This document shows, one piece after another, positions 1,556 to 20,672 of a DNA stretch of 20,672 nt. The stretch is taken from positions 1-20,672 of IMG/VR virus record IMGVR_UViG_3300025141_012877. One strand, written 5' to 3'. The DNA comes from a virus. Positions within the stretch are counted from its first letter, which is position 1. Every line of letters begins with the position of its first letter. A program made the translations under genes and the position numbers. Under the pieces are notes generated by a model. That model was not told the origin of the DNA, did not search any database, and was given only the letters and a program-made list of their open reading frames with translations.

Positions 1556-1696
1556 CTGGCCCTGCACTTCGACAAGCCCGCTGCCGCTCGAAAGAGCATC
1601 GCCGCTGCTTCCGGTTGTCGGGTGACCCTCCTCGCTGAGATCGCGGTGGTCAAGGCCGCCAAGGCCCGGGCCCGGAAGGGCGCTGCGGAGGGTTGA
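1556..1696 (+). CDS. Possible 46-aa basic ORF with CTG start
   Basis: The gap between 1530 and 1729 contains an open frame whose product (ALHFDKPAAARKSIAAASG, then RVTLLAEIAVVKAAKARARKG) has coding-like composition and a Lys/Arg/Ala-rich C-terminus. No ATG, GTG or TTG exists in frame after the upstream stop at 1493. A CTG at 1556 has GGGAG (1543-1547) at good spacing. The stop (1694-1696) lies inside the -35 box of the next gene. The unusual start makes this weak; the region may simply be untranslated. Confidence 0.25.
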   Translation: MALHFDKPAAARKSIAAASGCRVTLLAEIAVVKAAKARARKGAAEG

Positions 1697-1721
1697 CATT
1701 CCGCAAGGCCGGCGGCATCCT
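1693..1721 (+). promoter_or_regulatory. Probable leaderless promoter of the glycosyltransferase gene
   Basis: TTGACA (1693-1698), 17-nt spacer, CATCCT (1716-1721), then 7 nt to ATG 1729. The -35 is perfect but the -10 is poor. The geometry is the same as at P1 (1199). The first ten bases resemble the site at 9558 (both TTGAC-n-TTCCGCAA). Confidence 0.45.
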
Positions 1722-1728
1722 CACGCCC

Positions 1729-3393
1729 ATGCCTAAAGTCGATCTCGCTCCTGCCAAGCCCGACGCCCCGCTGGCCGTCGCGGCCCTCATCGTCAAGAAC
1801 GAAGCCAAGGGGCTGCCGGCCCTCTTCGAGCACGCCGCCGCCGCCGTGGACGCGTACGTGATCGTGGACACCGGCTCGACGGACGGGACGCAGTCCCTCA
1901 TCCCGACGCTGGCCGCCAAGCACGGCGTCTACGTCCACCTCATCGAGGACCCGTGGGACGACGACTTCTCCCGCAGCCGCAACGTGGGCCTGGACGCCAT
2001 CGACAAGCTGTGGCCCCCCAAGGCGCTGAAGGCTGGCCGCGGCCCCTGGATCCTCACGCTGGACGGGGACGACCGGCTCCAAGGCGCGGATGCGCTGCGG
2101 GCTGCCTTGGAGAGGGCCGAAGAGGAGATCACAGAGGACCCCCTCCAGGCTGGCGAGTACGCCGACGTGATCGCCCTTCAGGTGGTGAGCCCCGTGGGCG
2201 CAGGGCAGGCGGAGACGGTGGTGATCGCGCGCGTGTGGCGCCAGCACATCGGCGCTCGGTGGGTCTACCCCGTCCACATGCGCCCCGACTTCGGGGAGAG
2301 GGCTGAGACCGTGGTAGCCGGCACCGTGGAGGGCGCCTGGATCCTGCATGAAGGCTACGCCGACGCCGCGCACAAGACCGGGAACTACGATCGAGCCCTG
2401 CGCATCGTGCGTGCGAAGCTGGGCCCCCTCGACCCCCACCGCATCTACTGTGAGTGCCGCGCCCTGGCCGCCAAGGGGGAGTGGCAGGAAGCCGCGGAGG
2501 TCGCACAGCGGGGCATCGTCGCCCACGTCGAAGGTGAGATCGTGCTGGCGAACATCGCGCCGTGGATCGTGCTGGCGAACGCGCACATGCTCCAGGGCGA
2601 TGTGGCCTTGAGCCTGCGCATCCTGGCCGACGCGGTGCAGTTCACCTTCAGCGACCACCCAGGCCCCGACTTCTGGTGGCACGTCATCACCACCGCGGGC
2701 CTCGGGTACATGGCCGCGTCCTTTCGGGCAGCACAGGGGCTCCCCTGCTCCTCCGCAACGTCGCACAAGGCGTATGACGTGCTGACCGCTCTGGAGGACG
2801 TCGGTGTCTTCGAGAACGGGCTCCCCGACGAGATCATGGGCGTCCTCGGGCAGTTCGCAGACCGCATGGAGGGGATTCAGGTCCATGCCCCGCGGATCGA
2901 CGCGTGGGCGCTCCCCGGGGCCGCGGTGGGGTGGATCCAGACGAACGTGCCCGCGCCCGCGACCATCTGGGAGTTCGGCAGCGGGGAGGGTTCGACCCGG
3001 TTGGGGAATCTCGGCTACCGCGTCACGTCCGTCGAGCACGACCTGAACTTCGCCCTCGTGGATCGCGGGCCGACCGTGAAGGTCATCCACGCGCCGCTGG
3101 AGCCTGCCACCGACGGGAAGGTGCCCTGGTACGAACCGAAGATCGTGGAAGCCGGCGCCCCGAAGGGCTGCGATCTCGTCGTCCTCGACGGCCCCCCAGG
3201 CTCCATCGGCCGCGAGGGCATCCTGCGGAACCTCAACCTGCTGCCGCTGGACGTGCCGATCCTCGTGGACGACACGCACCGGCCGCGGGAGAACACCATC
3301 GCGGAGGCCATCGCGAAGGACCGCGGGGTGGAGGGCGCACGCATCGTCACCGCCGACAACCGCGCCTTCACCGTCATCCCGCCGGTGTCCTGA
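1729..3393 (+). CDS. GT2-family glycosyltransferase fused to SAM-methyltransferase-like domain
   Basis: A 554-aa two-domain protein. Residues 15-120 are a family-2 glycosyltransferase: the VKNEA motif, DTGSTDGT (47-54) for nucleotide-sugar binding, DDFSRSRN (78-85), and LTLDGDDR (109-116) containing the metal-binding DxD. A helical middle region (about 215-370) resembles the TPR-like repeats that follow many such GT2 domains. From about 413, WEFGSGEGSTRL and VVLDGPPG (484-491) followed by ILVDD look like the SAM-binding and post-beta4 parts of a class I methyltransferase. It probably adds and modifies a sugar on a virion or host surface target. An upstream TTG at 1693 is in frame but coincides with a -35 box, so I start at ATG 1729. 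The next gene starts 2 nt after the stop, so the two are co-transcribed. Confidence 0.85.
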   Translation: MPKVDLAPAKPDAPLAVAALIVKNEAKGLPALFEHAAAAVDAYVIVDTGSTDGTQSLIPTLAAKHGVYVHLIEDPWDDDFSRSRNVGLDAIDKLWPPKALKAGRGPWILTLDGDDRLQGADALRAALERAEEEITEDPLQAGEYADVIALQVVSPVGAGQAETVVIARVWRQHIGARWVYPVHMRPDFGERAETVVAGTVEGAWILHEGYADAAHKTGNYDRALRIVRAKLGPLDPHRIYCECRALAAKGEWQEAAEVAQRGIVAHVEGEIVLANIAPWIVLANAHMLQGDVALSLRILADAVQFTFSDHPGPDFWWHVITTAGLGYMAASFRAAQGLPCSSATSHKAYDVLTALEDVGVFENGLPDEIMGVLGQFADRMEGIQVHAPRIDAWALPGAAVGWIQTNVPAPATIWEFGSGEGSTRLGNLGYRVTSVEHDLNFALVDRGPTVKVIHAPLEPATDGKVPWYEPKIVEAGAPKGCDLVVLDGPPGSIGREGILRNLNLLPLDVPILVDDTHRPRENTIAEAIAKDRGVEGARIVTADNRAFTVIPPVS

Positions 3394-3395
3394 TC

Positions 3396-3926
3396 ATGGC
3401 GCGCATCTTCGTCACAGGCCCCGGCCGCTGCGGCACCGTCACCTTCGCCACGGCCTGCGCGGCTGCGAGCCTCTCCGACGGGGACAGCCCCATGACGGTT
3501 GCCCACGAGTCCCTGCGAGGGCAGGAGCCGGACTGGACGTACCCCGACAACCACATCGAGACCGAGCCGCGCCTCCTGTGGCAGGTTCACGATCTGCTCC
3601 GTGCGTACCCCGAGGCGCTGTGGGTCGTGCTCCACCGGGACCACGAGGACATGGTGCAGTCGTGGGCCAAGCGCGTGTACACGATGGCGGCCTGGAGCCG
3701 GCTGTCCCTGTTCACGGGCACGATCAGCCCCGACACCATCGGCCTGTACCTCGACTTCGTCTACAGCACCCTCGATGCCCTCCTGCCCCCGACGCGCACG
3801 TTGAACCTGACGACGCCAGTGCCCGGGGAGGAGTTCAAGAAGTTCGTGGAGTGGGCGGGTCTCAAGGCGAAGCGCGTGGAAGCCGGCGTGGCTACCCTCA
3901 AGCTCAAGCACAACCCCTCGAAGTAG
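3396..3926 (+). CDS. Sulfotransferase-like P-loop protein
   Basis: 176 aa. The N-terminal VTGPGRCGTVTF (residues 6-17) matches the 5'-phosphosulfate loop of sulfotransferases (GxxRSGTT type), with Cys in place of the usual Ser. LHRDHEDMVQSW (79-90) resembles the 3'-phosphate-binding segment (RDPRDVVxS). At 176 aa it is shorter than typical PAPS sulfotransferases (about 250-300), so the C-terminal part is reduced and activity is uncertain; a nucleotide-dependent kinase-like role is an alternative. It starts 2 nt after the GT2 gene stop, and a second sulfotransferase follows, consistent with a surface-decoration operon. The stop/start junction (3384-3400) is identical to one at 6387-6403 on the other strand. 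Confidence 0.7.
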   Translation: MARIFVTGPGRCGTVTFATACAAASLSDGDSPMTVAHESLRGQEPDWTYPDNHIETEPRLLWQVHDLLRAYPEALWVVLHRDHEDMVQSWAKRVYTMAAWSRLSLFTGTISPDTIGLYLDFVYSTLDALLPPTRTLNLTTPVPGEEFKKFVEWAGLKAKRVEAGVATLKLKHNPSK

Positions 3927-4088: not shown

Positions 4089-4775
4089 ATGAGCCCCCCC
4101 ATTCTGATTACGGGCTGCGCGAAGTCGGGAACCACACTCCTGTTTCGGCTGTTCCACGCCTTCAAGGGGCTGACTCCCCTCTACGGAGACAGGGGCGACT
4201 CCGAGGTTGATTTTCACCGGCTGATCAGCAAGACCCGAAACAACCCGAAGCGGACCTTCATCGGCAAGCGGCTAGGGGGCTGCGTCTTCTCGGGAGCCCT
4301 CGGCAACGCCCCGCTGGAAGCGCAGGTAGCCGACCTTCGAGCCGGTGGAGTCCGCTGCGTCAACATCATCCGCGACGGCCGCGACGTGGTCACGTCGGAC
4401 AGGAACTACGTCCCGCACGCCCGGTGGGTCGCTTCGATGAAGCACCGCGCCCTGTTCCCCGATCTGATCGTCGCGGAGGTCCGATACGAGGATCTGGTAC
4501 AGGACGCCGACGCGGTCCAGACGGTCTTGGGTGCAGCCCTGGGGCTCACCGCCAAGGCCCTGTTCAGCGAGTTCCCCGCGTTCCTGCCTGCGGCAGCGAA
4601 GAAGCGCCCGCGCGGGTCCAGCGACGCCTACCTGCTGCGGCCCATCGACACCGCCTCCATCCGGGCACGGCCAGAGCGCTCGGGAGCCACCAACGCCTTC
4701 CGACACCAGCTTCAGCTCGCGGGCTACACGGGATGGGACGCGGGCCATTGGGGGTTCGTACTCCCCAAGAAGTAA
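4089..4775 (+). CDS. Sulfotransferase family protein
   Basis: 228 aa. GCAKSGTT (residues 9-16) is the 5'-phosphosulfate-binding loop with the expected KSGTT. RDGRDVVTS (95-103) is a near-perfect 3'-phosphate-binding motif with the conserved Arg and Ser. RYEDLVQD (132-139) matches the common RYEDL element near the C-terminal third of this family. The protein should transfer sulfate from PAPS to a carbohydrate or other hydroxyl acceptor. It completes the GT2-methyltransferase/sulfotransferase cluster. Its Shine-Dalgarno is weak, and it begins 3 nt after the in-frame stop of the methyltransferase stub, so translation may depend on coupling. The gene ends 26 bp before a convergent gene. Confidence 0.82.
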   Translation: MSPPILITGCAKSGTTLLFRLFHAFKGLTPLYGDRGDSEVDFHRLISKTRNNPKRTFIGKRLGGCVFSGALGNAPLEAQVADLRAGGVRCVNIIRDGRDVVTSDRNYVPHARWVASMKHRALFPDLIVAEVRYEDLVQDADAVQTVLGAALGLTAKALFSEFPAFLPAAAKKRPRGSSDAYLLRPIDTASIRARPERSGATNAFRHQLQLAGYTGWDAGHWGFVLPKK

Positions 4776-5611: not shown

Positions 5612-6391
5612 CTACGCCGTGAGCGCGGCAGGCCCACGCGCACGGAGGGCGACCAGCTTGTTGCGCTCGGCGGCGCGCGAGACCATGACGTGCGCCGGGT
5701 CCCAGCCCAGCCCGAACTTCGCCCACTCGGCGTTGGACTTGCTGTAGTCACCGCCGGTGTCGAGGCCCAGCTTCTTGGCTTCGTCGCGGAGCGCCTGGAA
5801 GAACGTGGCCGCCTTCGTCCACGCGGCGGGGTTCTCAGCCAGGGTCTTGGCGGGCCAGCCCACGTCATGCTGCACGATGTCCGCCGCGAGCCCCGCGGGC
5901 GTGCCGTCGGGGTACGTCACGGTGTGCAGGCTGTAGATGATCCGGCTCTTGCCCTGCGCAAACGCGTTGCGCTGCCATGCTTCGTTGCGCCAGCCCACGG
6001 CGATCGAGGGGTCGAACCCCCGCGCCTTCATGGCGGCCAGGAGCTTCGTCACCACGGCCCGGAAGCCGGGTTCCAAGTGCTCAAGGCTTCGGGACGCCGT
6101 CGGGTTCGGGCCGCCGAGAGGTGGCGGGAGCTTCGCGACGAACGCGCGGCGGACGGCGGTGGTCCCGTCCTTCACGGCGGCTGGGACGGTCGGCAGGGCG
6201 CCTGGAGCCGCGCGCATCGTCGGGGGCGTCGCCTGCATCGGGCCCTGCCACCCCCCCGGGAGCTTCGGGGGCGTCGGGGGCGGGATCAGGAGTTCCTCGC
6301 TGCGCCGGCCACCAGCCAGCATGCCGAACCCGATCCCAAGCACCGCTGCGCCGCCGAGCCACACCCACGGACTGAATCCTCCCCGAGCCAT
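5612..6391 (-). CDS. Membrane-anchored M15-type peptidase (probable endolysin)
   Basis: 259 aa. Residues 9-27 (WVWLGGAAVLGIGFGMLAG) are a Gly-rich hydrophobic segment that could be a signal-arrest-release or permanent anchor. A Pro-rich linker (35-70) follows. The C-terminal domain carries the M15 zinc-peptidase pattern: SLH (H156), AGLAADIV (D171) and WDPAHV (H234), matching the SxH...GxAxD...H zinc triad of phage L-Ala-D-Glu/D-Ala-D-Ala peptidases. It should cleave the peptide stems of peptidoglycan for lysis or entry. ATG 6391 lies 2 nt after the stop of the upstream gene. An alternative is a virion-associated muralytic enzyme, given the neighbouring appendage-like gene. Confidence 0.8.
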   Translation of the reverse strand: MARGGFSPWVWLGGAAVLGIGFGMLAGGRRSEELLIPPPTPPKLPGGWQGPMQATPPTMRAAPGALPTVPAAVKDGTTAVRRAFVAKLPPPLGGPNPTASRSLEHLEPGFRAVVTKLLAAMKARGFDPSIAVGWRNEAWQRNAFAQGKSRIIYSLHTVTYPDGTPAGLAADIVQHDVGWPAKTLAENPAAWTKAATFFQALRDEAKKLGLDTGGDYSKSNAEWAKFGLGWDPAHVMVSRAAERNKLVALRARGPAALTA

Positions 6392-6393
6392 GA

Positions 6394-6756
6394 TCAGGAC
6401 ACCCGCCGCAGAGCCCGAACCTCAGACCCCTTGCCGCGGGGGTCCGAGAACCGAGCCGCCAGCGCCTTGCGCACGTTGCGGACCTCACGGGCGATTGCTT
6501 CGCAGGGCGCGTCGTCGTGGTACGCCATGAGCCACTCCTGCGCGAAGGCTGCCACGGCGTCCGCGTTGGACTTGTAGGGGCCCCGGGGGTCCAGCGCACC
6601 CGCCTCCTCACCGAATGCTTCGATCGCCAGCAAGTGCTTGCGGATGCAGTCGGGGCACTGCTTGTGCGGGTGGCAGAGGTGGTCCTCCAGCAAGACCATC
6701 TGCTTGACGGCCTCGCGCAGGCTCGTGCGCGGGTCCGTGAGGGAAAGACGCAGCAT
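6394..6756 (-). CDS. Small protein with Cys/His metal-binding motif
   Basis: 120 aa from ATG at 6756 (complement). An upstream in-frame extension to 6915 runs through AT-rich non-coding-like sequence and is not used. Residues 25-41 (DHLCHPHKQCPDCIRKH) contain C28, H31, C34, C37 and H41, a likely zinc site of a type I have seen in uncharacterised phage and bacterial proteins with a CPDCIRKH signature. The rest is helical (LLAIEAFGEEAGAL, AQEWLMAYHDD, EAIAREVRNVRKALAARF). Function is unknown; a small adaptor or regulator is possible. It is the first gene of the minus-strand lysis/appendage operon and overlaps nothing downstream (2-nt gap to the lysin). Confidence 0.65.
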   Translation of the reverse strand: MLRLSLTDPRTSLREAVKQMVLLEDHLCHPHKQCPDCIRKHLLAIEAFGEEAGALDPRGPYKSNADAVAAFAQEWLMAYHDDAPCEAIAREVRNVRKALAARFSDPRGKGSEVRALRRVS

Positions 6757-6828
6757 GGGCACAGAGTATCGACGGGACGGAGGGGGAGCAAGATGCAGTT
6801 CGTGAGGGAGAGATACCGTATAGGGTAA

Positions 6829-6842
6829 TTGCCAAAAGGCAA
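6829..6842. repeat. Short inverted repeat TTGCC-AAAA-GGCAA
   Basis: A perfect 5-bp stem with an A4 loop in the upstream leader of the minus-strand operon. It could be a regulator site or a minor hairpin. Confidence 0.5.
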
Positions 6843-7018
6843 AACCCGGTGAAACCCGAAAAAGGGCAAACACATATAAGATAAAGCTGACCAACCGGTT
6901 TTCGGCCCAATACACTTCTCCTGCGGGAATGGATAAGTTATCGAATACTTTTTCTTAAACTTATCGATCCCTACAGTCAACGTATTAAATACTGAGAGAA
7001 TCCGTGACCATACTTTAT

Positions 7019-7048
7019 CTTAACACTGGTTATAATTCCAGTGTTAAG
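7019..7048. repeat. Perfect 11-bp inverted repeat around an AT core
   Basis: Left arm CTTAACACTGG (7019-7029), 8-nt centre TTATAATT (7030-7037), right arm CCAGTGTTAAG (7038-7048). The arms are exact reverse complements. No T-tract follows, so it does not look like a terminator. The two-fold symmetry about an AT-rich centre is typical of a dimeric-regulator operator or a recombinase core site. The arm sequence GTGTTAAG recurs at 7098-7105. Confidence 0.75.
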
Positions 7049-7097
7049 GGATTTCCGATCTGAATTCCCCGCGCTTCGGTTTGGGGGGTCTAAAACT

Positions 7098-7107
7098 GTG
7101 TTAAGGT
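7098..7107 (+). promoter_or_regulatory. Third GTGTTAAG site overlapping a leaderless -10 box
   Basis: GTGTTAAG (7098-7105) overlaps TAAGGT (7102-7107), a TANNNT -10 that ends 7 nt before GTG 7115. A protein binding the GTGTTAAG sites would occlude this promoter. A -35 element is not clear; TTGGGG at 7081 is at short spacing. Confidence 0.5.
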
Positions 7108-7114
7108 ATTTTTT

Positions 7115-7993
7115 GTGAAACCACATATCTGCTATACGGGACTGATTCGGGGGTGTTTTGTGCTTTCTGACGTGCTTGCGAAGTTCATCGCCACGAAGGG
7201 CGATTGGTGGTCTGCACAGTCCTGGCGGATCTACTCCAGCGCGTTGCGGGCCCTCCTGCACGATGACCTCCGCAATCCCACCGGGCACTTCACTGCGGAC
7301 GCCCTGGCACAGGCTATCGAACGAGCGGACGCGCTCTACTCCCCCTCCCGCATGGGCCAGACCCAGGCGGCCTACCGACGCTTCTACTCCTGGGCGCGAA
7401 CGGTCGAGGGCATCGAGACGCTGCCGGTCCTCGCCAAGCGTGCCCCCGGGCGCCCACGGCAGGCTACGGACACGAGCCCCTTCCACACGGACGGCGCCGG
7501 CCCGACGCGGGAGGTGTACGAGGCCGCCGACCTCCTGCTCGAAGTCATGAGCCGCCACGTGGGGCAGACGCGCTTCCTCGATACCTACTGGCGCGACCTG
7601 CGCGCCGAGACGGTGGAGGGGGTCACGCCCGATGCACCGCCGCAGGGGCGCTTTCTCTTTCCCACACGGGTTCGGGGCCAGTTCTTCCACTTGGGCGCTA
7701 CGTCGCCAGAGGGCGATGCCCTGCGCGTGCTCCTGAGCTACAGCGTCGGCGTGGAGGGCGAGCACCCGCAAGGGCCGTTGCTGCCCACGACGCCGGGCGG
7801 CGTGCGCCCCCTCTCACGGAGTAGCCTGCGCCGTGGGCTGCGCGAACTGAAGCGCGTACGCGAGACAGAGACCGCAGCCGAGGCCGGCTCAGTCGTTGAA
7901 ATCGAGGGTGTACACGGTCCCACCGCTGACGTGCGTGGGCTTCTCAATAATGAAGCCGTCGGCGCCACCGATGCGGGTCCGGCCGCCCCCTAG
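7115..7993 (+). CDS. Tyrosine-recombinase-like protein lacking the catalytic C-terminus
   Basis: 292 aa from GTG 7115, chosen because a TANNNT box ends 7 nt upstream (leaderless layout); GTG 7160 is an alternative. Residues about 20-110 (WRIYSSALRALLHDDL ... MGQTQAAYRRFYSWAR) resemble the helical core-binding domain of tyrosine recombinases. The following part (RDLRAETVEGVTPD, PLLPTTPGGVRPLS, then SRSSLRRGLREL) resembles the first part of a catalytic domain. The HxLRH box and the Tyr nucleophile region are not found; the sequence ends in an unrelated acidic/Ala-rich tail. It may have become a DNA-binding protein acting on the repeats upstream, or be a recombinase whose end has been lost. The last 105 bp overlap the 3' end of the convergent gene, so the natural end is uncertain. 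The family assignment is tentative. Confidence 0.5.
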   Translation: MKPHICYTGLIRGCFVLSDVLAKFIATKGDWWSAQSWRIYSSALRALLHDDLRNPTGHFTADALAQAIERADALYSPSRMGQTQAAYRRFYSWARTVEGIETLPVLAKRAPGRPRQATDTSPFHTDGAGPTREVYEAADLLLEVMSRHVGQTRFLDTYWRDLRAETVEGVTPDAPPQGRFLFPTRVRGQFFHLGATSPEGDALRVLLSYSVGVEGEHPQGPLLPTTPGGVRPLSRSSLRRGLRELKRVRETETAAEAGSVVEIEGVHGPTADVRGLLNNEAVGATDAGPAAP

Positions 7994-9511
7994 ATCCTCC
8001 TCGTCGGCTGTCCTGTCGTACTTCTTGAGCGGCACTCCGTCGGGTCCGTAGATGACCGGCGCCTCGGCGGGGATGATCTTGTCCTCCAAGGAGGCGGAGG
8101 AGGAGTCGCCCGCGAACAGCGACGGCGCTGCATCGTCGCAGGGGATGAGGCCCGCGCGGACACGGCGCTGTGCTTCTACGACGGACGCATGGACGTCCAG
8201 GGCGGCCTGTACGCCGTCCTCCAGGGGCGCGTTGGGCGCGCGCCGGTACATGTACAGCTTGGGGTCTGGGGACTGCACAGGGTCCGCGAGGCCCGTCGCG
8301 GGCACCATCTCCCTGGCCGTCTCGATCATCCCCTCGCACACGAGGGTGTCAAGAATGGGCTCCAGGGTGCGGAGCAGGAGCTTGGAGCGCCGTGCGATGT
8401 GGCCTCGACGGCACCAGACGTCGCCAATGCTGTCGAGGACGGAGGCGCGGTTGACCATGTCGCGGCTGCCGCCGACGGAGTCGAACACGGCGATCGAGCC
8501 CATGTAGCAGCGAATGGCGATGTCGATCGCGACCTGCATGTGGCGCGTGTCGATGCGCCAGTCCTTGCCACCGTTCCCGTACACCGGGTGCCCGTAGCCC
8601 GAGGCGAAGCACAAGAGCAGGGCGATCTTCAAGGCGTGGGTCGGTGACCGAGCGTGGACGCCAGCGAAACGCTCGTCGGGGAGCAGCGACACGGACTCCT
8701 CGACGCCCAGGTTAAATTCCTTCCAGAGGGACAGCGCGTCGGGGGTGAAGCCGACGCAGGCGCCGAAGGTGTTGGGGGCCGCGTGGAGGGTGGCTTCGCA
8801 CCACAAGCGAAGGCTCTGAAAGAGGGCCGCGTTCCCGGGGGGCATGTTGTGGCGGCGCTCACGGCGTGCGGAGAAGAAGCAGAAGCGTGAGAAGAGGCCC
8901 CCCAGGAAGTCGGTGATCTCCGCGTGCTCCGCCAGGAGGGCCCCGTTGATGGCGCCCAGGATGTTGAGGCGCGGGCTCTCACAGCGCACGGTGGTGCGGG
9001 AGAGGCGGCTACTCAGTGGGCGCCCGTCCCAGCAGTGCAAGAAGGTGGTCTTGAGGGCACTCAAGAAGTTGCCGCCGGTCCTGGCCTTGGTCTGCGCCAG
9101 GAAGTCTGCGAAGTCGGGGTACTCCAGCATTTGCTGGCTCTGCTCGCACAGCGAGTTGACGAGGCCCTGGACAGAGCCCGGGTCGGCCCCCAGGCGGCTG
9201 GGCGCGACCTCCCCGAGGAGGATGGCCGCCTGCTTGATGGACGTGGTCTTGCGATCGAAGCCCTGGCGTCCGAGAACGAGGGAGTAGAAGTTCGTGTTGA
9301 CGATGCCGCCCGGGCCGTTCGACAAGTACAGGTTGGGGGGCGACAACGCCGAGACCAGGGGGAGTGACGCACCCAGCGCATAGAAGAGCGGCGCGTCGGT
9401 TACCTGCTCCATCCACTCCACGAATGCGCGGATGAAGTTCTCCTGGGGCAGCGTCTTGAGGGTGCGCACGATGTCGGCTTCCCTTGACCAGGGAAGGGGC
9501 TTGGAAGGCAA
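7889..9511 (-). CDS. DUF3987-like P-loop ATPase (primase/helicase-associated type)
   Basis: 540 aa from TTG 9511 (complement), which has GGGAG six nt upstream; GTG 9553 would add 14 residues without a ribosome site. The N-terminal part (ENFIRAFVEWMEQVTDAPLF) and LVLGRQGFDRKTTSI (about 78-92) look like the start and nucleotide loop of DUF3987-type proteins found with phage and plasmid primases. The loop has RKTT instead of GK(S/T). ITDFLGGLFSRFCFFSARRE resembles the conserved GLxxRF segment later in this family. Residues after about 370 are poorly conserved, and the acidic end may be a tail. It probably acts in phage DNA replication. It is transcribed away from the helicase gene and converges on the recombinase-like gene, overlapping it by 105 bp. 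Confidence 0.65.
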   Translation of the reverse strand: MPSKPLPWSREADIVRTLKTLPQENFIRAFVEWMEQVTDAPLFYALGASLPLVSALSPPNLYLSNGPGGIVNTNFYSLVLGRQGFDRKTTSIKQAAILLGEVAPSRLGADPGSVQGLVNSLCEQSQQMLEYPDFADFLAQTKARTGGNFLSALKTTFLHCWDGRPLSSRLSRTTVRCESPRLNILGAINGALLAEHAEITDFLGGLFSRFCFFSARRERRHNMPPGNAALFQSLRLWCEATLHAAPNTFGACVGFTPDALSLWKEFNLGVEESVSLLPDERFAGVHARSPTHALKIALLLCFASGYGHPVYGNGGKDWRIDTRHMQVAIDIAIRCYMGSIAVFDSVGGSRDMVNRASVLDSIGDVWCRRGHIARRSKLLLRTLEPILDTLVCEGMIETAREMVPATGLADPVQSPDPKLYMYRRAPNAPLEDGVQAALDVHASVVEAQRRVRAGLIPCDDAAPSLFAGDSSSASLEDKIIPAEAPVIYGPDGVPLKKYDRTADEEDLGGGRTRIGGADGFIIEKPTHVSGGTVYTLDFND

Positions 9512-9557
9512 TGAGGTCTCCCGGTGAGAGTCAGCGCACTGAAGATACAGCACTTAC

Positions 9558-9586
9558 TTGACGTTCCGCAACCCTCCACGTACCCT
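9558..9586 (+). promoter_or_regulatory. Candidate promoter of the helicase operon
   Basis: TTGACG (9558-9563), 17-nt spacer, TACCCT (9581-9586). The first part matches the site at 1693 (TTGAC-n-TTCCGCAA). It lies in the divergent gap upstream of the helicase. The -10 fits only the loose TANNNT rule. Confidence 0.4.
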
Positions 9587-9649
9587 CGGGATGCTGATTG
9601 TCCCGGGATTCACGTGAACGCCACCCCAGCCATACTCGACGGCCCTACG

Positions 9650-11197
9650 ATGCCCACGGCGCTCGTGCTCCCCGAGCTACGCCCGTGGGTCTGGCCGTTC
9701 CTGACGGACTACCAGCGCCAAGGCATCGTGAAGGCCATCGCGCGCAGCAACCTGAACTTCTGGTGGGCCTGCGGCGCGGGCAAGACGCTGAGCGCCCTGG
9801 TGTGGGCCATCGCAGTGCGCGGCCCCGTGGTGGTAATCACGAAGGCTGCGGCTCGTCGGCAGTGGGCGAACGAGGTGCGCCGCTTCACGACGGTGGACCC
9901 GCATGTGATCTTGCCTGTGGGTTCGCAGCGCGCCGGCTACGAGGATCTGGGGGCCTACCTCAAGCGCATTCGCGCGAACAAGCAGCGGGCGCTCGTGCTG
10001 GTTGCCTGGGACGCCCTGCGCGATGACGAGACGTACTTGAATCTGTGCGCACTGGTTGATCCCACCGACGCCGGGGGCGGCTCGGGCTCGATCGTGGCCG
10101 ACGAGATCCACAACGCGAAGGACCACCGCCGATTCACGCCCCTTCCGCAGCAAGACGGGTCGATGCAGTTTGAGGAGCGGAAGACGGCCGCCGCACGCGG
10201 GTCCTTCCTCATGCGCACCGCCAAGCGCAGGCTCGGGCTCACTGCGACGCCGATGCCCGATCGGCCGCGGGACCTGTGGGCGCAGTTGGACGCCGTCGAT
10301 CCCGGGTGCATGGGCAAGTATTGGGACTACGCCGTGCAGTTCTGCAACGCCCACCGCGGCGCGTACGGGATGGTAGATGACGGTGCTTCCAACGCCGTGC
10401 TCCTGCGGGAGACCGTCGCGCCGCGCGTCCACATCGTGCGGTCGGAGGCCGTCTACAAGCTCTTGCCTCCCGTCCGGCGCATGACCACGATCTTGTCCGC
10501 CGACATGCTCGGGATGGCATCGGCAGCGTCCTCGCGCGAGGTGAAGCGCGCCGCCAAGGAGGCGCACGGAGGCACTGGCACTGAGGGTGGCGAGGCCGCG
10601 GGCAACTTGCTGGAGGCGCGGTTGATGGAGACCGCGTCGATGAAAAAGCGGCACGTCGTGGAGCACGCGGCCGAGCTTCTACGTGCCAAGCAAAAGGTGT
10701 TGATCTTCACCGCGCGGCGTCGGGACGTGGCGTCCATCGAGAAAGCTCTGCGCAGGAAGACCGCCAAGATGCAGGGGCTTGCGCTGTGGGCAGCCGACGG
10801 AGGCACCCCCGCCGAAGAGCGCGAGGGGATCCGAGAGGAGTACATGGCCCATCCGGGGCCCGCGTGCATCGTGGGGACCGGTGCAGCTTGGGGCGAGTCC
10901 TTGAACCTGCACGACACGGACCGCTTGGTGGTGGTCCTGCTCCCGTGGACGTGGGGGCAGATTCGTCAGTGGGAGGGCCGCGTGCGCCGGCTCGGAATGC
11001 AGCGTTCGTGCATCATCGAGTACCTGATCGCAGAGGGCACCATTGACGAGCGCATCGCGAACATCGTCTTGGGGAAGCTCGCGGCAGTGGAGGCGATTCT
11101 GCCCGACGAGCAACTGCAAGGTGTCCGTGAGACCGTCCAGGGCGGCACGGACGAGGAAGTAATTGACGGCCTGCTCGACAGGCTGCTGGAGGACTGA
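9650..11197 (+). CDS. SNF2-like superfamily 2 DNA helicase/translocase
   Basis: 515 aa from ATG 9650; an in-frame GTG at 9614 is an alternative start. Motifs in order: a Q-motif-like DYQRQG (20-25), Walker A GAGKT (42-46), motif Ia VVVITKAAARRQW, Walker B DEIH (151-154), motif III LGLTATP (195-201), motif V GAAWGESLNLHD and motif VI QWEGRVRRLG (440-449) containing the arginine finger. The QxxGRxxRxG end is typical of SNF2-type proteins. It should couple ATP hydrolysis to moving on double-stranded DNA during replication, recombination or repair. Its last codons (LLED-stop) contain GGAGGAC, the ribosome site for the next gene. It heads an operon with a small basic protein and an Fe-S nuclease. 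Confidence 0.88.
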   Translation: MPTALVLPELRPWVWPFLTDYQRQGIVKAIARSNLNFWWACGAGKTLSALVWAIAVRGPVVVITKAAARRQWANEVRRFTTVDPHVILPVGSQRAGYEDLGAYLKRIRANKQRALVLVAWDALRDDETYLNLCALVDPTDAGGGSGSIVADEIHNAKDHRRFTPLPQQDGSMQFEERKTAAARGSFLMRTAKRRLGLTATPMPDRPRDLWAQLDAVDPGCMGKYWDYAVQFCNAHRGAYGMVDDGASNAVLLRETVAPRVHIVRSEAVYKLLPPVRRMTTILSADMLGMASAASSREVKRAAKEAHGGTGTEGGEAAGNLLEARLMETASMKKRHVVEHAAELLRAKQKVLIFTARRRDVASIEKALRRKTAKMQGLALWAADGGTPAEEREGIREEYMAHPGPACIVGTGAAWGESLNLHDTDRLVVVLLPWTWGQIRQWEGRVRRLGMQRSCIIEYLIAEGTIDERIANIVLGKLAAVEAILPDEQLQGVRETVQGGTDEEVIDGLLDRLLED

Positions 11198-12863: not shown

Positions 12864-13241
12864 ATGGCCAAAGAAGCTGCCGCCCGCGCAGGGCGGCGTA
12901 CGGGAACGTCTCACGGCGCGCTACGCGCCGCCGTCCTCAAGATCGTGCAGGAGGAACCTCCCGAGGCCCCACTGAGCGACGACGCCATCGGCGCGATGCT
13001 TGACCGTTCGCAGCAAGCCGTCTCGGAGGCCCGCCGTGCTCTGTCCCTCGGGAACAGTCGTGAACGGCTCCGGGGCTACACCCTGCGCAAGGACTACGCC
13101 GTAGGTCCCGGGCTTGCCCGATGCGCGACGTGCTGCACCTGGGCCGAGGTGCCCGCCGGATGGGGCTCTGTGTGCTGCGTACGCGGTCACGGGCGCCTTG
13201 TGCTGTCCAGCTTCCGGCTGATAGTCCGCCGCCCCAGGTAG
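12864..13241 (+). CDS. HTH DNA-binding protein resembling the sigma-54 C-terminal domain, plus Cys cluster
   Basis: 125 aa from ATG 12864, GGAGGAAG upstream. Residues about 37-70 (PLSDDAIGAMLDRSQQAVSE, then ARRALSLGNSRERLR) follow the layout of the sigma-54 (RpoN) DNA-binding domain, where a conserved SDxxIA helix is followed by an ARRTVAKYREALGI-like segment and a basic stretch. Only the HTH is present; no core-binding part exists. The second half has five cysteines (C87, C90, C91, C104, C105), probably a zinc site, and a basic end. Likely a small phage transcription regulator. Similarity to RpoN is by eye only. Confidence 0.6.
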   Translation: MAKEAAARAGRRTGTSHGALRAAVLKIVQEEPPEAPLSDDAIGAMLDRSQQAVSEARRALSLGNSRERLRGYTLRKDYAVGPGLARCATCCTWAEVPAGWGSVCCVRGHGRLVLSSFRLIVRRPR

Positions 13242-13296: not shown

Positions 13297-13321
13297 AAAT
13301 CTTGCGCTTCCGCTAAGATTT
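13297..13321. repeat. Hairpin-forming inverted repeat abutting promoter P2
   Basis: AAATCTT-GCG pairs with CGC-T-AAGATTT around a CTTC loop, giving 10 bp with one bulged T. The right arm ends 3 nt before the -35 box of P2. It may end transcription from the upstream gene (stop at 13241) or be a regulator site for P2. There is no U-tract. Confidence 0.6.
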
Positions 13322-13352
13322 AGGTTGAAACGCAGTAAGACGTACCTATAGT
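13319..13352 (+). promoter_or_regulatory. Promoter P2 (recurrent family)
   Basis: TTGAAA (13325-13330), 16-nt spacer with TAAGACGTAC, and TATAGT (13347-13352). Over 34 positions it is identical to P4 (20366-20399) at 28, including TTTAGGTTGAAAC and TAAGACGTAC. It drives the 13398 gene cluster. Confidence 0.8.
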
Positions 13353-13394
13353 GAAGGTGTCCGGGGCTACTGACCCCCCAGGGCGGAGACCTTC
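13353..13394 (+). promoter_or_regulatory. Leader inverted repeat covering the ribosome site
   Basis: GAAGGTGTCCG (13353-13363) pairs with CGGAGACCTTC (13384-13394) with one mismatch, and GGGG/CCCC lies inside. The right arm contains GGAG (13385-13388), the ribosome site for ATG 13398. If transcription starts near 13359, as the -10 box implies, only part of the left arm is in the RNA. The full palindrome may therefore be a DNA operator, and the shorter RNA stem (TCCGGGG with CCCC and CGGA) could still mask the ribosome site. Confidence 0.45.
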
Positions 13395-13397
13395 AAC

Positions 13398-13766
13398 ATG
13401 CTCACCGAGAACCCCACCACGACCCCCGGCGGCAAGCCGCTGTACTTCCCCAAGTCGGACATGACCGACCTGTTCGTAGGGAGCTGTTTGCCACCCTTGT
13501 TTGACATAGACGAGCGAGCCCTCTTCGTATCCAGCCCGCCGCGAACAGGCACCGTTGGCACCTACGTCGTGCCCTGCGACGGGCTCCGGGCCTGGATCGA
13601 GGCGAACATGATCTACGGCATGGAGGACTGCTACGTGAAGCTGACCTTCCGGGCCGATGGCTCCTGCTTGGTGGCCCTCTCCTACAACCGCATCATCGGG
13701 AGCCGCTGGCTCACCGTGCTCCCCGCCTCCGACGTCCACGACTTCTTCACACCCCTGGAGGACTGA
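13398..13766 (+). CDS. Hypothetical protein
   Basis: 122 aa from ATG 13398, GGAG 9 nt upstream. First gene after promoter P2. It has a Pro/Thr-rich N-terminus, then predicted beta strands (ALFVSSPP, GTYVVPCDGLRAWIEANM, CYVKLTFRADGSCLVALSYN). No known family or active-site pattern. It ends in FTPLED-stop; the GGAGGAC of the final codons provides the ribosome site for the next gene, indicating translational coupling. Confidence 0.65.
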   Translation: MLTENPTTTPGGKPLYFPKSDMTDLFVGSCLPPLFDIDERALFVSSPPRTGTVGTYVVPCDGLRAWIEANMIYGMEDCYVKLTFRADGSCLVALSYNRIIGSRWLTVLPASDVHDFFTPLED

Positions 13767-17028: not shown

Positions 17029-18516
17029 ATGTCAGACAGCCCCTTCGCGGTGGACAACTACGAAAACGAGGACGTCATGCTGATGACCGCGGCGGCCGTC
17101 CAGGCGCCCGGCGTCGAGGGTGAGGTCTTGGGGCTCCCGGTGCTCCTCTGGGGCGCCCCTGGCGTTGGCAAGACGAGCCGCCTCAACAAGCTGGCGAAGA
17201 GCCTCGACTTCAAGCGCCTGCACAAGGGCAAGCTGGTCAAGGGCGCGATCACCGTGCTCGCGTCGGTCCGCGAGGCGTCGGACTTCCTCGGCGTGCCGAT
17301 CCCCGGCGGCACTCTGGATGTGGGCGGCGAATCCGTGGACGTGCTCAAGTTCGCGCCCCCCGAGTGGGCCATCGCCGCCGCCGTCGCAGCGCAGGGGGGC
17401 GACCCCTCCTACGCTTGGGACGCGCACAAGGAGGAGAGCAAGAACGCGTCGGCGCGTGCGGCCGTGTTCTTCGATGAGTTCGCCACGGCGCCCCCGTCGG
17501 TGCAGGCCGCGTTGCTCCGTGTGATTCACGAGCGCGTCGTCGGGGACTACCAGCTTCCCCGCACCGTGGCCATGCTCGCCGCCGCCAACCCCCCGTGGAT
17601 GAGTCCCGGCGGGAAGACCCTGTCGCCGCCGAGCGCCAACCGCTTCATCCATCTGTACTGGACTCCGCCGTCGGCAGACCAGTGGGCCAACTGGCTGACC
17701 GGCGAGGACCGCAAGAGCCTGAAGGACGGGGAGGAGGTCCACCCCAAGCTCAAGGTCACGACCTTCTACCGGATCCTCGATCAGTTGAAGTCGAAGGTGG
17801 CCGAGTGGATCCGCACCGATGAGGGGCGACCGTTCCTCTTCAAGATGCCGGGCCTCGGGGAAGGCGAAGACGAGGTGACTCTGATCTCGCGGTACTTCGC
17901 AGAGCACCCCGAAGCGTCCTCCGGCTACATCCCCGAGTTGGAGCGCGACGTGCTCTTCACGGACCAGTTCGCGTGGCCGTCGCCACGGTCCCTGGAGATC
18001 GCCGTGCGCGCGCGTGCCGCCGTCATGTCCCTGGACGGCGTGGCGAAGAACAAGCGCACGAAGCTGGCCAACGACATCACCTGTGCTACCATTGGGTCCG
18101 AGGCGTGCGGCGTCCTCAACGCCTTCCTCGACGTGATCGCGACCAACACCATCCCGCCCCAAGAGTTCATGGAGGACGCGGCCGTGCGCAACTCGTTCCT
18201 CAAGCGCACGCAGGCCGACGAGGACTTGCGACTCCAGTTGGAGATGGTCCTCAACTACTACCGGGATCTCCCCCTAGAGGATCTCCGCTCCCAGGCGGGC
18301 GCGTTGCAGGCTTCGATCAAGGCATTCGAGGACACGTACATTTCTATCGGCAGCATTCTGAGCGTCACCGACGGCCTCAGCACGTGGATGCAGGACGAAC
18401 GGGAAGGCGCGCCCCGCGTGGTGCGCGAGAACGGACGAGACGCTCTCATGGCACTGCGCCGGATGATGGCCGCGGTGAAGGGCCTTGCCATTGCCAAGAG
18501 GAACGAGGTGGCCTGA
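17029..18516 (+). CDS. MoxR-type AAA+ ATPase
   Basis: 495 aa from ATG 17029 (GGGAG ten nt upstream); ATG 16996 is in frame but overlaps TAGGAT and has no ribosome site. Walker A GAPGVGKTS (42-50), Walker B AVFFDEF (145-151), sensor 1 AANPP (185-189) and the adjacent GGKTLSPPSANRF (194-206) match the MoxR group, which remodels or activates partner proteins and is usually encoded beside a VWA-domain protein. Residues 1-40 and about 230-495 are less conserved, with a helical end (DLPLEDLRSQAGALQASIKA). The next two genes follow without a gap, and the last of them is a metallopeptidase of the class usually paired with such ATPases. Confidence 0.85.
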   Translation: MSDSPFAVDNYENEDVMLMTAAAVQAPGVEGEVLGLPVLLWGAPGVGKTSRLNKLAKSLDFKRLHKGKLVKGAITVLASVREASDFLGVPIPGGTLDVGGESVDVLKFAPPEWAIAAAVAAQGGDPSYAWDAHKEESKNASARAAVFFDEFATAPPSVQAALLRVIHERVVGDYQLPRTVAMLAAANPPWMSPGGKTLSPPSANRFIHLYWTPPSADQWANWLTGEDRKSLKDGEEVHPKLKVTTFYRILDQLKSKVAEWIRTDEGRPFLFKMPGLGEGEDEVTLISRYFAEHPEASSGYIPELERDVLFTDQFAWPSPRSLEIAVRARAAVMSLDGVAKNKRTKLANDITCATIGSEACGVLNAFLDVIATNTIPPQEFMEDAAVRNSFLKRTQADEDLRLQLEMVLNYYRDLPLEDLRSQAGALQASIKAFEDTYISIGSILSVTDGLSTWMQDEREGAPRVVRENGRDALMALRRMMAAVKGLAIAKRNEVA

Positions 18517-18517
18517 G

Positions 18518-19219
18518 ATGCCCGAACCCATCCTGTACGAAGCAGACGGAGGCGCCTTCCTTCAGGCCACACGGCGTGGCGTTCGGCGCTACACCCCCGA
18601 CGGCGCGCCCCTCTACGCCGCGCCGGTGGAGGCCCCGACGGAGTGGAAGCCGGTGAGACTCTTCTACGGGAACCCGGGCCGCGTGCGCGCGGGGTTCTCG
18701 ATGGAGGTCGCCGTGGCCTACCGCCTGGATGAGACCCGCGTGGTGGTCTGGCGCGCGGTGATGCTGTCGCAGGACGTGGCCGAGCAGCGTGCGGGGGGCA
18801 GCGGGGGCTCCTCGGTTCTTGTTGGGATGGCCCTCCACCAGAAAGGGGCCCCCTCGGTGGCGGGCGCGATGGCGGCCGTGCGCACCGCAGACCCAACGGC
18901 GTTCCCCTCCCTGACCCTGGCGGAGATGGTGCGTGCCAAGGCGTTCCCCAAGCAGGGCCACATCCCCTCCGGCGCCAAGACGCCGGTGGACGTTCTCAGG
19001 GGCACCGCGGCCAACCTCATCGCGGCGGCGCTGTTCGCAGGCGCGAAGCCCGACGCCTCCGCGACGGAGGTGGTGAAGCGGCTGGCGATCGAAGCCCTGA
19101 CGGAACACGCCAGCCTCCCCTCCTACGTCCTGCACGAGGACCGGGAGGAGGGTGCAATGCAGGCGGAGGAGGCGACGCTGGCACGCGAGCTTGCCGATCT
19201 CGCGGACCTGGGGTTCTAG
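18518..19219 (+). CDS. Hypothetical protein between MoxR and metallopeptidase
   Basis: 233 aa from ATG 18518, 1 nt after the MoxR stop, GAGG upstream. N-terminal part (1-120): mixed strands (PILYEADGGAFLQATRRG, VRLFYGNPGRVRAGF, VVVWRAVMLSQDVAEQ). C-terminal part: helical (GTAANLIAAALFAGAKPDAS, VVKRLAIEALTEHASLPSYV) ending in an acidic/Ala helix. No motif is recognised. Its fixed position between the ATPase and the peptidase suggests a subunit or adaptor of the same machine. Confidence 0.65.
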   Translation: MPEPILYEADGGAFLQATRRGVRRYTPDGAPLYAAPVEAPTEWKPVRLFYGNPGRVRAGFSMEVAVAYRLDETRVVVWRAVMLSQDVAEQRAGGSGGSSVLVGMALHQKGAPSVAGAMAAVRTADPTAFPSLTLAEMVRAKAFPKQGHIPSGAKTPVDVLRGTAANLIAAALFAGAKPDASATEVVKRLAIEALTEHASLPSYVLHEDREEGAMQAEEATLARELADLADLGF

Positions 19220-20362
19220 ATGGCCGTCGAGTCCTATTGGGATCGAGAGAAGGCGAAGGGGTCCTCTCTCACGCCGGAGATGCAACGGCAGGCGCGCGGC
19301 AACGTACGCGCGGCCCTCATGCGCGCGCGGCTCCTCATGCCCTACACGGCCGCCCTCATCGACAAGCTCCAGCCCATCGCGTCGGAGAAGGTCCCCACGC
19401 TGGCGGTGAGCCCCGACTTGTACCTCATCTACAACCCGTTCTTCTTCAAGGACTACGAGGGGAAGATGGGGCGCTGGGAGTTCGGCGTCACCTTCCTGCA
19501 CGAGTCCCTGCACGTCATCTTCAAGCACTTCTCGCGGTGGGACGAGTACAAGAAAAAGCTCATTCGCAAGGGCGAGACGCCCAGCGCGAAGCGGTGGAAT
19601 TTGGCGGGAGACGTCGAGATCAACTCGGGGCTCGTCGGCATCAAGCCCGTCAACAAGGTTCTGTCGCGCATGATCGGCGCGACCCTCATGGAGATCCGCG
19701 CAGGAGAGCACGGCTGGGACCTGACCTACGCCGACAACGAGAAGCAGCGGGCGGCGGCGCGTCGCATCGGCAAGGCTGAATGGGCGGCGCTGCCCGAGGC
19801 CGAGAAGTACCCCCGCGGGATCACCGACTGGCCCAAGGGGCCAATCAGCCTGCCCCGCTGGTTCTGGTTCGCGGACATGCTCAGGCCCCCGCAGAAGCCC
19901 GGGAGGCGCGCGGAGTTCTACTACCCCTTCGTCCCCAAGGACGGGAAGCCCGGGGAGGTCTACCCCCCGCCGCAGAGGAAGCCCCCGTGGAAGGGCTACA
20001 AGAACGGCGACCGCGTCGTGATCAAGGCCACGAACGAGGAGGGCGTCATCGTAGAGGCGGGCCCCTACGACCCCAACGCCGACCCTCCCCAGAAGTTCAA
20101 AGTCATCGTGACCAACTACGTCACTGAGTCGGCGCGCAGCGTCAAGCACGCCAAGATCGCCGCTGCGGTCGCCAAGGCCAAGAAGGACGCGGGGCTTCGC
20201 CCCTGCGGCTGCCCCGAGGGCGATGAGGAGTGTCTGCACGACTGCAACTCGCCAGCCTTCACGGTGCCCGCGACGACGTCTGCCCCCAAGTCCCGTGCGC
20301 CCTCGACGCCTACGCAGACGTCCAGCGCGGCCGACGATCCGCAGGGCATGGAGTGGGACTGA
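19220..20362 (+). CDS. DUF2201-like putative metallopeptidase without VWA domain
   Basis: 380 aa from ATG 19220, directly after the previous stop. HESLH at residues 94-98 is an HExxH zinc site in the context FLHESLHVIFKHFSR, and WNLAGDVEIN (126-135) provides the downstream Asp typical of DUF2201 N-terminal domains. DUF2201 proteins usually continue into a VWA-like metal-binding domain. Here residues after about 225 instead hold a KOW-like basic strand region (YKNGDRVVIKATNEEGVIVE), a Cys cluster (CGCPEGDEECLHDC, 329-342) and a Ser/Thr/Pro tail. It is probably activated by the MoxR ATPase upstream. Its target is unknown. Confidence 0.75.
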   Translation: MAVESYWDREKAKGSSLTPEMQRQARGNVRAALMRARLLMPYTAALIDKLQPIASEKVPTLAVSPDLYLIYNPFFFKDYEGKMGRWEFGVTFLHESLHVIFKHFSRWDEYKKKLIRKGETPSAKRWNLAGDVEINSGLVGIKPVNKVLSRMIGATLMEIRAGEHGWDLTYADNEKQRAAARRIGKAEWAALPEAEKYPRGITDWPKGPISLPRWFWFADMLRPPQKPGRRAEFYYPFVPKDGKPGEVYPPPQRKPPWKGYKNGDRVVIKATNEEGVIVEAGPYDPNADPPQKFKVIVTNYVTESARSVKHAKIAAAVAKAKKDAGLRPCGCPEGDEECLHDCNSPAFTVPATTSAPKSRAPSTPTQTSSAADDPQGMEWD

Positions 20363-20365
20363 AAG

Positions 20366-20399
20366 TTTAGGTTGAAACCCGCTAAGACGTACTTACATT
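20366..20399 (+). promoter_or_regulatory. Promoter P4 (recurrent family)
   Basis: TTGAAA (20372-20377), 16-nt spacer ending in TAAGACGTACT, TACATT (20394-20399). It matches P2 at 28 of 34 positions. It serves the acidic protein gene starting at 20435 after a leader of about 30 nt with AGGAG. Confidence 0.78.
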
Positions 20400-20434
20400 G
20401 TACATAGCTGACAACCTACCCAGGAGAGCACACC

Positions 20435-20672
20435 ATGCCCGGCACCATCGAAGACACCCGCCTTGGCGAGACCGTCCCCGCCGTCTACGACGAGGTCACC
20501 CGCGTGATCGAGCGCGGAGGCCCCAGCGACTCAGAGGAGGAGCCCGACGACGCACCGCCCCCCATCGTCAAGGAGCGCATCGAAGGCGACGACGAAGGCG
20601 ACGACGACACCGGCGACGAAGGCGACGACGACGACGGTGAGGGTGAAGACGAAGACGGTGAGGGTGAAGACG
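20435..20672 (+). CDS. Acidic repetitive protein (3' truncated by window edge)
   Basis: At least 79 residues from ATG 20435, AGGAG nine nt upstream. The N-terminus (MPGTIEDTRLGETVPAVYDE, then VTRVIERGG) looks folded. From about residue 30 the sequence is Asp/Glu/Gly repeats, including a 21-bp nucleotide repeat near the end (GACGGTGAGGGTGAAGAC at 20633-20650 and 20654-20671, separated by GAA). Strongly acidic phage proteins can mimic DNA or bind basic partners; this is speculation until the rest is seen. It has its own P4 promoter. Confidence 0.6.
   Translation, partial: MPGTIEDTRLGETVPAVYDEVTRVIERGGPSDSEEEPDDAPPPIVKERIEGDDEGDDDTGDEGDDDDGEGEDEDGEGED

Follow-up and report, generated by a model that had tools for sequence, protein, structure and literature searches.

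Whether a phage can do without the VWA half of a MoxR-associated metallopeptidase, or only encodes that half in a gene of its own, is the question raised by a three-gene cassette at positions 17029-20362 of a virus fragment, IMG/VR record IMGVR_UViG_3300025141_012877. The complete fragment, hereafter the window, measures 20672 bases and has a GC content of 67.4%. The cassette includes genes for a MoxR ATPase, a middle protein, and a protein carrying the motif HESLH. A preliminary description, made from the letters of the window, considered the locus a candidate for an undescribed system, with the VWA half of the peptidase replaced. The three open reading frames (ORFs) on which it relied were all verified (Table 1); they run head to tail, separated by 1 nt (MoxR to middle gene) and 0 nt (middle to HESLH gene). 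The data reported below favour a different interpretation, to which we assign a probability of about 0.72: the window carries a split-gene form of the N4 gp24-gp25 type machine, made by MoxR, the middle protein, an HExxH subunit and a VWA subunit encoded separately.

The missing half in a syntenic phage

Scans of viral contigs with single proteins (MoxR, middle protein, peptidase, helicase) were fruitless, and alignments were needed to find relatives. The only close relative found, a phage contig of 105,738 bp denoted L093, was reached by a scan for MoxR relatives. All three genes of the window cassette occur together in L093, and a fourth follows them, in the order MoxR (5953-7503), middle gene (7500-8111), HESLH gene (8154-9278) and VWA gene (9346-10542). 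The L093 HESLH protein (374 aa) has no VWA domain; the product of the next gene (398 aa) features the motifs VDTSAS and FTDG. The two proteins cover different parts of PHROG 1314, a profile of 394 positions, the peptidase spanning positions 43-154 (E=2.1e-8), the next protein positions 157-301 (E=3.3e-7). Pfam DUF2201_N is divided likewise, with positions 7-106 in the peptidase and 143-269 in the next protein, the second match falling below the cutoff. As the coverage is complementary, the gene break in L093 lies between the peptidase domain and the region made by helical linker and VWA. A profile of the C-terminal half, built from 78 fused relatives and from neither window nor L093 sequences, was searched against 1000 ORFs of the L093 record, and its sole credible match was the gene next to the peptidase (E=2.7e-10). 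Replacement of the VWA half is therefore not borne out, as in the syntenic phage the missing half is the very next gene.

The window and L093 share a common gene order, which includes the two first ORFs of the window, endolysin-like, primase, helicase, exonuclease and NUDIX genes, and the cassette; a few exceptions, the glycosyltransferase gene and the ORF at 13657 among them, are located elsewhere. An assembly error behind the missing VWA was considered and rejected, since an independent contig, about 40% identical, ends the peptidase gene alike.

The window contig stops 238 nt into the gene located where L093 has the VWA gene. The 79 readable residues of this truncated gene are acidic (43% D+E), and many fused relatives carry D/E-rich linkers at the corresponding place. 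From position, and not from sequence similarity, we infer that the truncated gene encodes the VWA subunit of the window. In both the window and L093 the sole promoter-like site of the scanned region falls between the peptidase gene and the next gene (1 site found vs 0.2 expected, in each). In the window this site belongs to a 35-nt repeat, found at 13319-13353 and 20366-20400, whose copies are 83% identical (TTGAAAC....TAAGACGTAC.TA) and stand upstream of two genes; no such arrangement was seen in 100 shuffles.

The ATPase and the peptidase subunit

The first gene encodes a MoxR ATPase, as anticipated. Its product matches PHROG 1297 (E=4.5e-24) and Pfam AAA_5 above cutoff, matches AAA_3 as well, and has intact motifs: Walker A (GAPGVGKT), Walker B (VFFDEF), sensor 1 (N187), arginine finger (R205) and sensor 2 (PSPRS). 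The L093 MoxR is 46% identical to it across residues 1-493, and the catalytic motifs are all identical in the two proteins.

The HESLH protein matches Pfam DUF2201_N (E=6.7e-6; 26.3 bits, cutoff 23.2; positions 7-100 of 271) and PHROG 1314 (E=3.1e-10; positions 10-112 of 394), so its HExxH is not a chance pentapeptide. In a 22-sequence alignment H94, E95, H98, H103, W126, A129 and N135 are invariant, and D131 is found in 21 sequences, replaced by Glu in one. The assignment to the DUF2201 type of peptidases is thus upheld and, on profile evidence, the protein corresponds to the N-terminal half of phage gp25 proteins (PHROG 1314, DUF2201_N). It is 40% identical to the VWA-less protein of L093.

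The absence of a VWA region from the HESLH protein, also claimed before, was confirmed. No VWA with a DxSxS site was found in the HESLH gene of the window or in the L093 peptidase gene, and a VWA profile of 48 relatives, run unfiltered on every window ORF, detected none (best E=3.4). In the AlphaFold model of the peptidase, residues 11-80 mostly have a predicted local distance difference test (pLDDT) score of 74-84, the surroundings of the active site 60-80, and the remainder is low. No Rossmann-like VWA is seen after residue 200, nor a VWA-like fold in residues 225-380, where the model is of low confidence. The best viral Foldseek matches of the model are phage metallopeptidases (E=4.5e-6); among solved structures the best match, Methanocaldococcus jannaschii selecase, is not significant (E>=2). 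The top structural match, BFVD A0A6J5SX34, is a short phage metallopeptidase of 249 aa, probably too short for the usual VWA half, and a possible further member of the split or VWA-less kind.

Two features had been described as gained by the peptidase. Residues ~255-316, described as a KOW-like stretch, are conserved in L093 (pattern PWKGY..G.RVV...T.EEG..V..G). The resemblance to KOW was not confirmed, since neither the window nor the L093 segment has a Pfam match, KOW and SH3 included, up to E=10, and the fold, two short strands, is modelled with low pLDDT. The cysteine cluster (C329, C331, C338, C342) is present, but it is absent from L093, and was rejected, as a zinc site, as a defining feature of the protein.

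Fused relatives and other splits

Peptidase-bearing loci number 166, and form 56 clusters at 80% identity. In 52 clusters the peptidase is fused to VWA; the remaining four comprise one truncated and three split clusters. Scanning of bacterial genomes revealed just four distant loci, with VWA fused in all. Several annotated phages (N4, with gp24-gp25, Presley, S-TIM5, Atu_ph07, Vibrio phage D505) feature MoxR followed by a gene called HNH endonuclease. Where read, the encoded proteins have an N-terminal HExxH-type domain and a C-terminal VWA with a DxSGS site; the peptidase motif is HQILH in Atu_ph07. The label HNH endonuclease for PHROG 1314 and N4 gp25 (e.g. at L183:2165-3307 and L003:4983-6188) is probably a propagated misnomer, judging from the members read, N4 gp25 itself not being among those translated.

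In addition to the lineage of the window and L093, peptidase and VWA are encoded by separate neighbouring genes in L104, L105 and L109, which are one virus met in three metagenomes, and in L169 (Table 1). In the L104 virus a (GE)n tract precedes the end of the peptidase and varies in length, for totals of 323, 355 and 411 aa in the three contigs, and a frameshift, programmed or accidental, is possible at the split. The sequence around the stop resembles a small KOW/SH3-type strand pattern. In L169 a nearby MoxR gene lies on the strand opposite to the split genes.

In the MoxR tree the window and L093 group with the fused L094 and L095 (support 0.999), L104 with the fused L122 (1.0), and L169 with the fused L099, L103 and L110 (0.985). 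As each split is nested among fused relatives, three independent fissions are the simplest account. The recurrent split appears from these comparisons to be new. If genuine, repeated fission would mark the two halves, peptidase and VWA, as separable modules of a single complex. The natural splits provide halves that can be expressed separately, which makes it simple to ask whether cleavage is needed and to which half MoxR and the target each bind.

The middle protein and the slot it occupies

The protein of 233 aa between ATPase and peptidase is unrecognised, as had been reported, and co-occurs with both in one close relative. It has no significant match in Pfam, NCBIfam, PADLOC or PDB, and the best PHROG match has E=0.0056. 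The L093 middle protein (203 aa) has the same operon position and is 26% identical to it (tblastn E=3e-8). An AlphaFold model obtained from the two sequences is unusable (mean pLDDT 35). A match to the ATPase of Salmonella phage Munch (E=0.1), which could make the protein a piece of MoxR, was dismissed as chance-level, since it covers the ATPase core, and a full MoxR is already next door in the window.

Of the fused clusters, 48 have MoxR just upstream; in 30 of these a gene-sized gap separates the two genes, and in the other 18 they are directly adjacent. The gap holds unrelated proteins across phages. Two large slot families, besides other proteins, were read in the gaps of L009-L088: one, found at 52 loci, features the motif TLNQALKAWP and weakly resembles Nmad5, the other, found at 15 loci, weakly resembles DUF3150, both resemblances being below the curated cutoffs. 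No literature was found on DUF3150; the Nmad5 paper deals with DNA modification and Tmn sensing (PMC11846954), and was not used for the reading given here. Assignment of the window protein to either family was rejected (hhalign probability <1%), and it has no similarity to the middle protein of Presley.

As the slot is commonly filled, the presence of an unidentified protein there is normal in kind. By sequence comparison the middle protein is lineage-specific and new, with no detectable homologue outside the window and L093, and it most likely serves as a lineage-specific adaptor choosing the target. The repeated swaps of the gene between MoxR and peptidase point to an exchangeable adaptor slot.

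Relation to known systems

The notion of an undescribed system does not hold. A fused form is known from jumbo phages, where a role in virion assembly, with proteolysis, has been proposed for MoxR and a metallopeptidase-VWA protein (Iyer et al. 2021, PMC7824862), and N4 gp24 and gp25, found in middle transcripts, are among the 14 core genes of N4-like phages (PMC4193335). The window resembles the jumbo-phage pair, an example of which resides in Atu_ph07, in having MoxR beside HExxH-type and VWA domains of the same families. The two differ in that in jumbo phages the peptidase and VWA are one protein, with MoxR adjacent, whereas in the window and L093 a middle protein intervenes, and peptidase and VWA have separate genes, as seen in L093 and inferred for the window. 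The ATPase and peptidase families are also those of N4 gp24-gp25 (Schitoviridae core; PHROG 1297 and 1314), but gp25 is fused to VWA. In Presley, as in the window, a gene is found between MoxR and peptidase. L104, L105, L109 and L169 are similar for the separate neighbouring genes; they differ because L104 and L169 belong to other MoxR clades, in which each has a fused sister group of its own, and because L104 has no middle gene and the MoxR of L169 is oppositely oriented. The Nmad5-like and DUF3150-like genes share with the window middle gene the slot only, profile-profile comparison revealing no homology.

Possible function

In MoxR-VWA systems the VWA captures a target, which then undergoes an ATP-driven change (PMC7159879). 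By this logic a MoxR hexamer would spend ATP to move the target, the metal-ion site of the VWA would grip it, the predicted zinc peptidase would cut the held target, or its fold would serve without cutting, and the middle protein would act as the adaptor for target choice. Peptidase and VWA would assemble in trans. The chances of this mechanism in its details, with ATP-driven capture by VWA and cutting or remodelling by the peptidase, fall slightly short of even. More tentative is the view of the cassette as a four-subunit unfoldase-protease, with a MoxR ring, a free peptidase and a free VWA under separate promoters, and a lineage-specific adaptor; if true, the phage could set remodelling and cleavage independently. 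No experimentally established function was found for MoxR and peptidase-VWA cassettes, though they belong to the core of N4-like phages and other phages commonly have them.

The middle phase is the most likely time of expression of the cassette, since replication and recombination genes precede it and its N4 counterparts, gp24/25, are middle genes. The cassette is close to replication genes in Presley and Vibrio phage D505 as in the window. Given the middle expression in N4 and the replication or recombination neighbours in the window as well as in Presley and the Vibrio phage, an intracellular target, in replication or takeover, seems no less likely than a virion protein.

Two functional alternatives are compatible with the split, and neither seems the likelier outcome. 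One is assembly or maturation of the virion, in which MoxR and VWA would chaperone structural proteins and the peptidase trim them. This was proposed for the fused form of jumbo phages by analogy with a MoxR-VWA pair acting in tail assembly of an archaeal virus (PMC7824862); moreover, structural genes are close by in S-TIM5 and Xanthomonas phage XaC1, and a second structural module is found near gp24/25 in roseophages (PMC4193335). The same study reports, however, that the N4 gp24/25 transcripts are middle, not late, and the neighbours of the cassette are replication, recombination or nucleotide genes in the window as well as in Presley and the Vibrio phage. The other alternative, which we rate just as low, is a host-takeover or counter-defence protease extracting and destroying a host protein early or in the middle phase of infection, with the fast-changing middle protein picking the victim. 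The slot holds unrelated proteins across phages, as target-specific adaptors would require, the N4 genes are expressed in the middle phase (PMC4193335), and the zinc-site residues are intact. Yet a substrate is not known, the core status in N4-like phages suggests a general function, and the slot protein of the largest group resembles, below the curated cutoff, Nmad5, which is associated with DNA modification.

Some data weigh against the split-gene interpretation. The 79 readable residues of the truncated gene are of low complexity, match nothing, and are unlike the N-terminus of the L093 VWA protein. The GGT loop usual at the metal site is degenerate in the L093 VWA, although DTSAS and TDG are present. 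Given the promoter-like site that lies between them, peptidase and VWA could be expressed separately. The exact form is known from two members only, the window and L093, and peptidase activity, assembly and substrate are matters of prediction. These data leave room for a real loss or replacement of the VWA in the window lineage, with the C-terminal segment of the peptidase and the middle protein binding the target, and the acidic ORF being unrelated. No VWA is found within the available 20.7 kb, the peptidase domain is followed by a conserved segment other than VWA, and the acidic ORF shows no similarity to the L093 VWA protein and has its own promoter-like element. We regard such a loss as improbable, because L093, syntenic to the window, retains VWA in the gene right after the peptidase, shares the C-terminal segment of the window peptidase, and has its VWA gene likewise after a promoter-like site. 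Less probable still is a conflict system of the bacterial MoxR-VWA style, which the phage would carry as a defence against its competitors. Bacteria have conflict systems that combine a MoxR-VWA pair with a third component, and the VMAP/iSTAND/FtsH ternary systems of multicellular bacteria (PMC7159879) share with the cassette the logic of MoxR, VWA and third component, but no VMAP, iSTAND or effector domain was found, PADLOC gave no match for peptidase and middle protein and just weak AAA-core matches for MoxR, and the cassette is part of a conserved phage gene order that includes replication genes. Looked at for a third component of VMAP, iSTAND, FtsH or beta-propeller type, the middle protein had no match in PADLOC, Pfam or NCBIfam, and its model has a mean pLDDT of 35. 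The split-gene form of the N4 gp24-gp25 type machine is thus the reading retained. What was observed directly are the three window genes with intact motifs, the four-gene order and complementary halves in L093, and the fissions elsewhere.

Features of the window

Table 1. Cassette features in the window, and splits found in other contigs (L093, L104, L105, L109 and L169 are contigs described in the text)
Feature	Position	Strand	Basis or remarks
MoxR-clade AAA+ ATPase, 495 aa	17029..18516	+	PHROG 1297, AAA_5/AAA_3, identity to L093
Middle protein, 233 aa	18518..19219	+	no significant family match; homologue only in L093
HExxH metallopeptidase subunit without VWA, 380 aa	19220..20362	+	DUF2201_N, PHROG 1314, identity to L093
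Zinc-binding/catalytic motif H94-E95-S-L-H98 (predicted)	19499..19513	+	22-sequence alignment
Peptidase segment, ~residues 255-316	19982..20167	+	conserved with L093
Cysteine cluster C329/C331/C338/C342	20204..20245	+	absent from L093
Promoter-like element TTGAAA-16-TACATT	20366..20400	+	35-nt repeat of 13319-13353
5' end of next gene, at least 79 aa, acidic, presumed VWA subunit	20435..20672	+	position, promoter-like site, D/E composition
L104 split (also L105, L109)	L104:7154-9041		VWA start codon one base after peptidase stop
L169 split	L169:644-2431	-	217-aa HEVMH protein, 3 nt on 376-aa DCSGS VWA protein

Pfam and PHROG searches of the window show that genes resembling those for primase, helicase and exonuclease lie upstream of the cassette. 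No tRNA or Rfam family was found in the window. A protein of 125 aa (12864-13241) matches a sigma-54 DNA-binding domain slightly over the Pfam cutoff (E=3e-5), and is possibly a phage regulator. Two adjoining sulfotransferase-like genes (2904-3926, 3' part, and 4089-4775) reside beside a glycosyltransferase gene (1693-3393); only the second exceeds its Pfam cutoff, and the pair is an unusual cargo for a phage.

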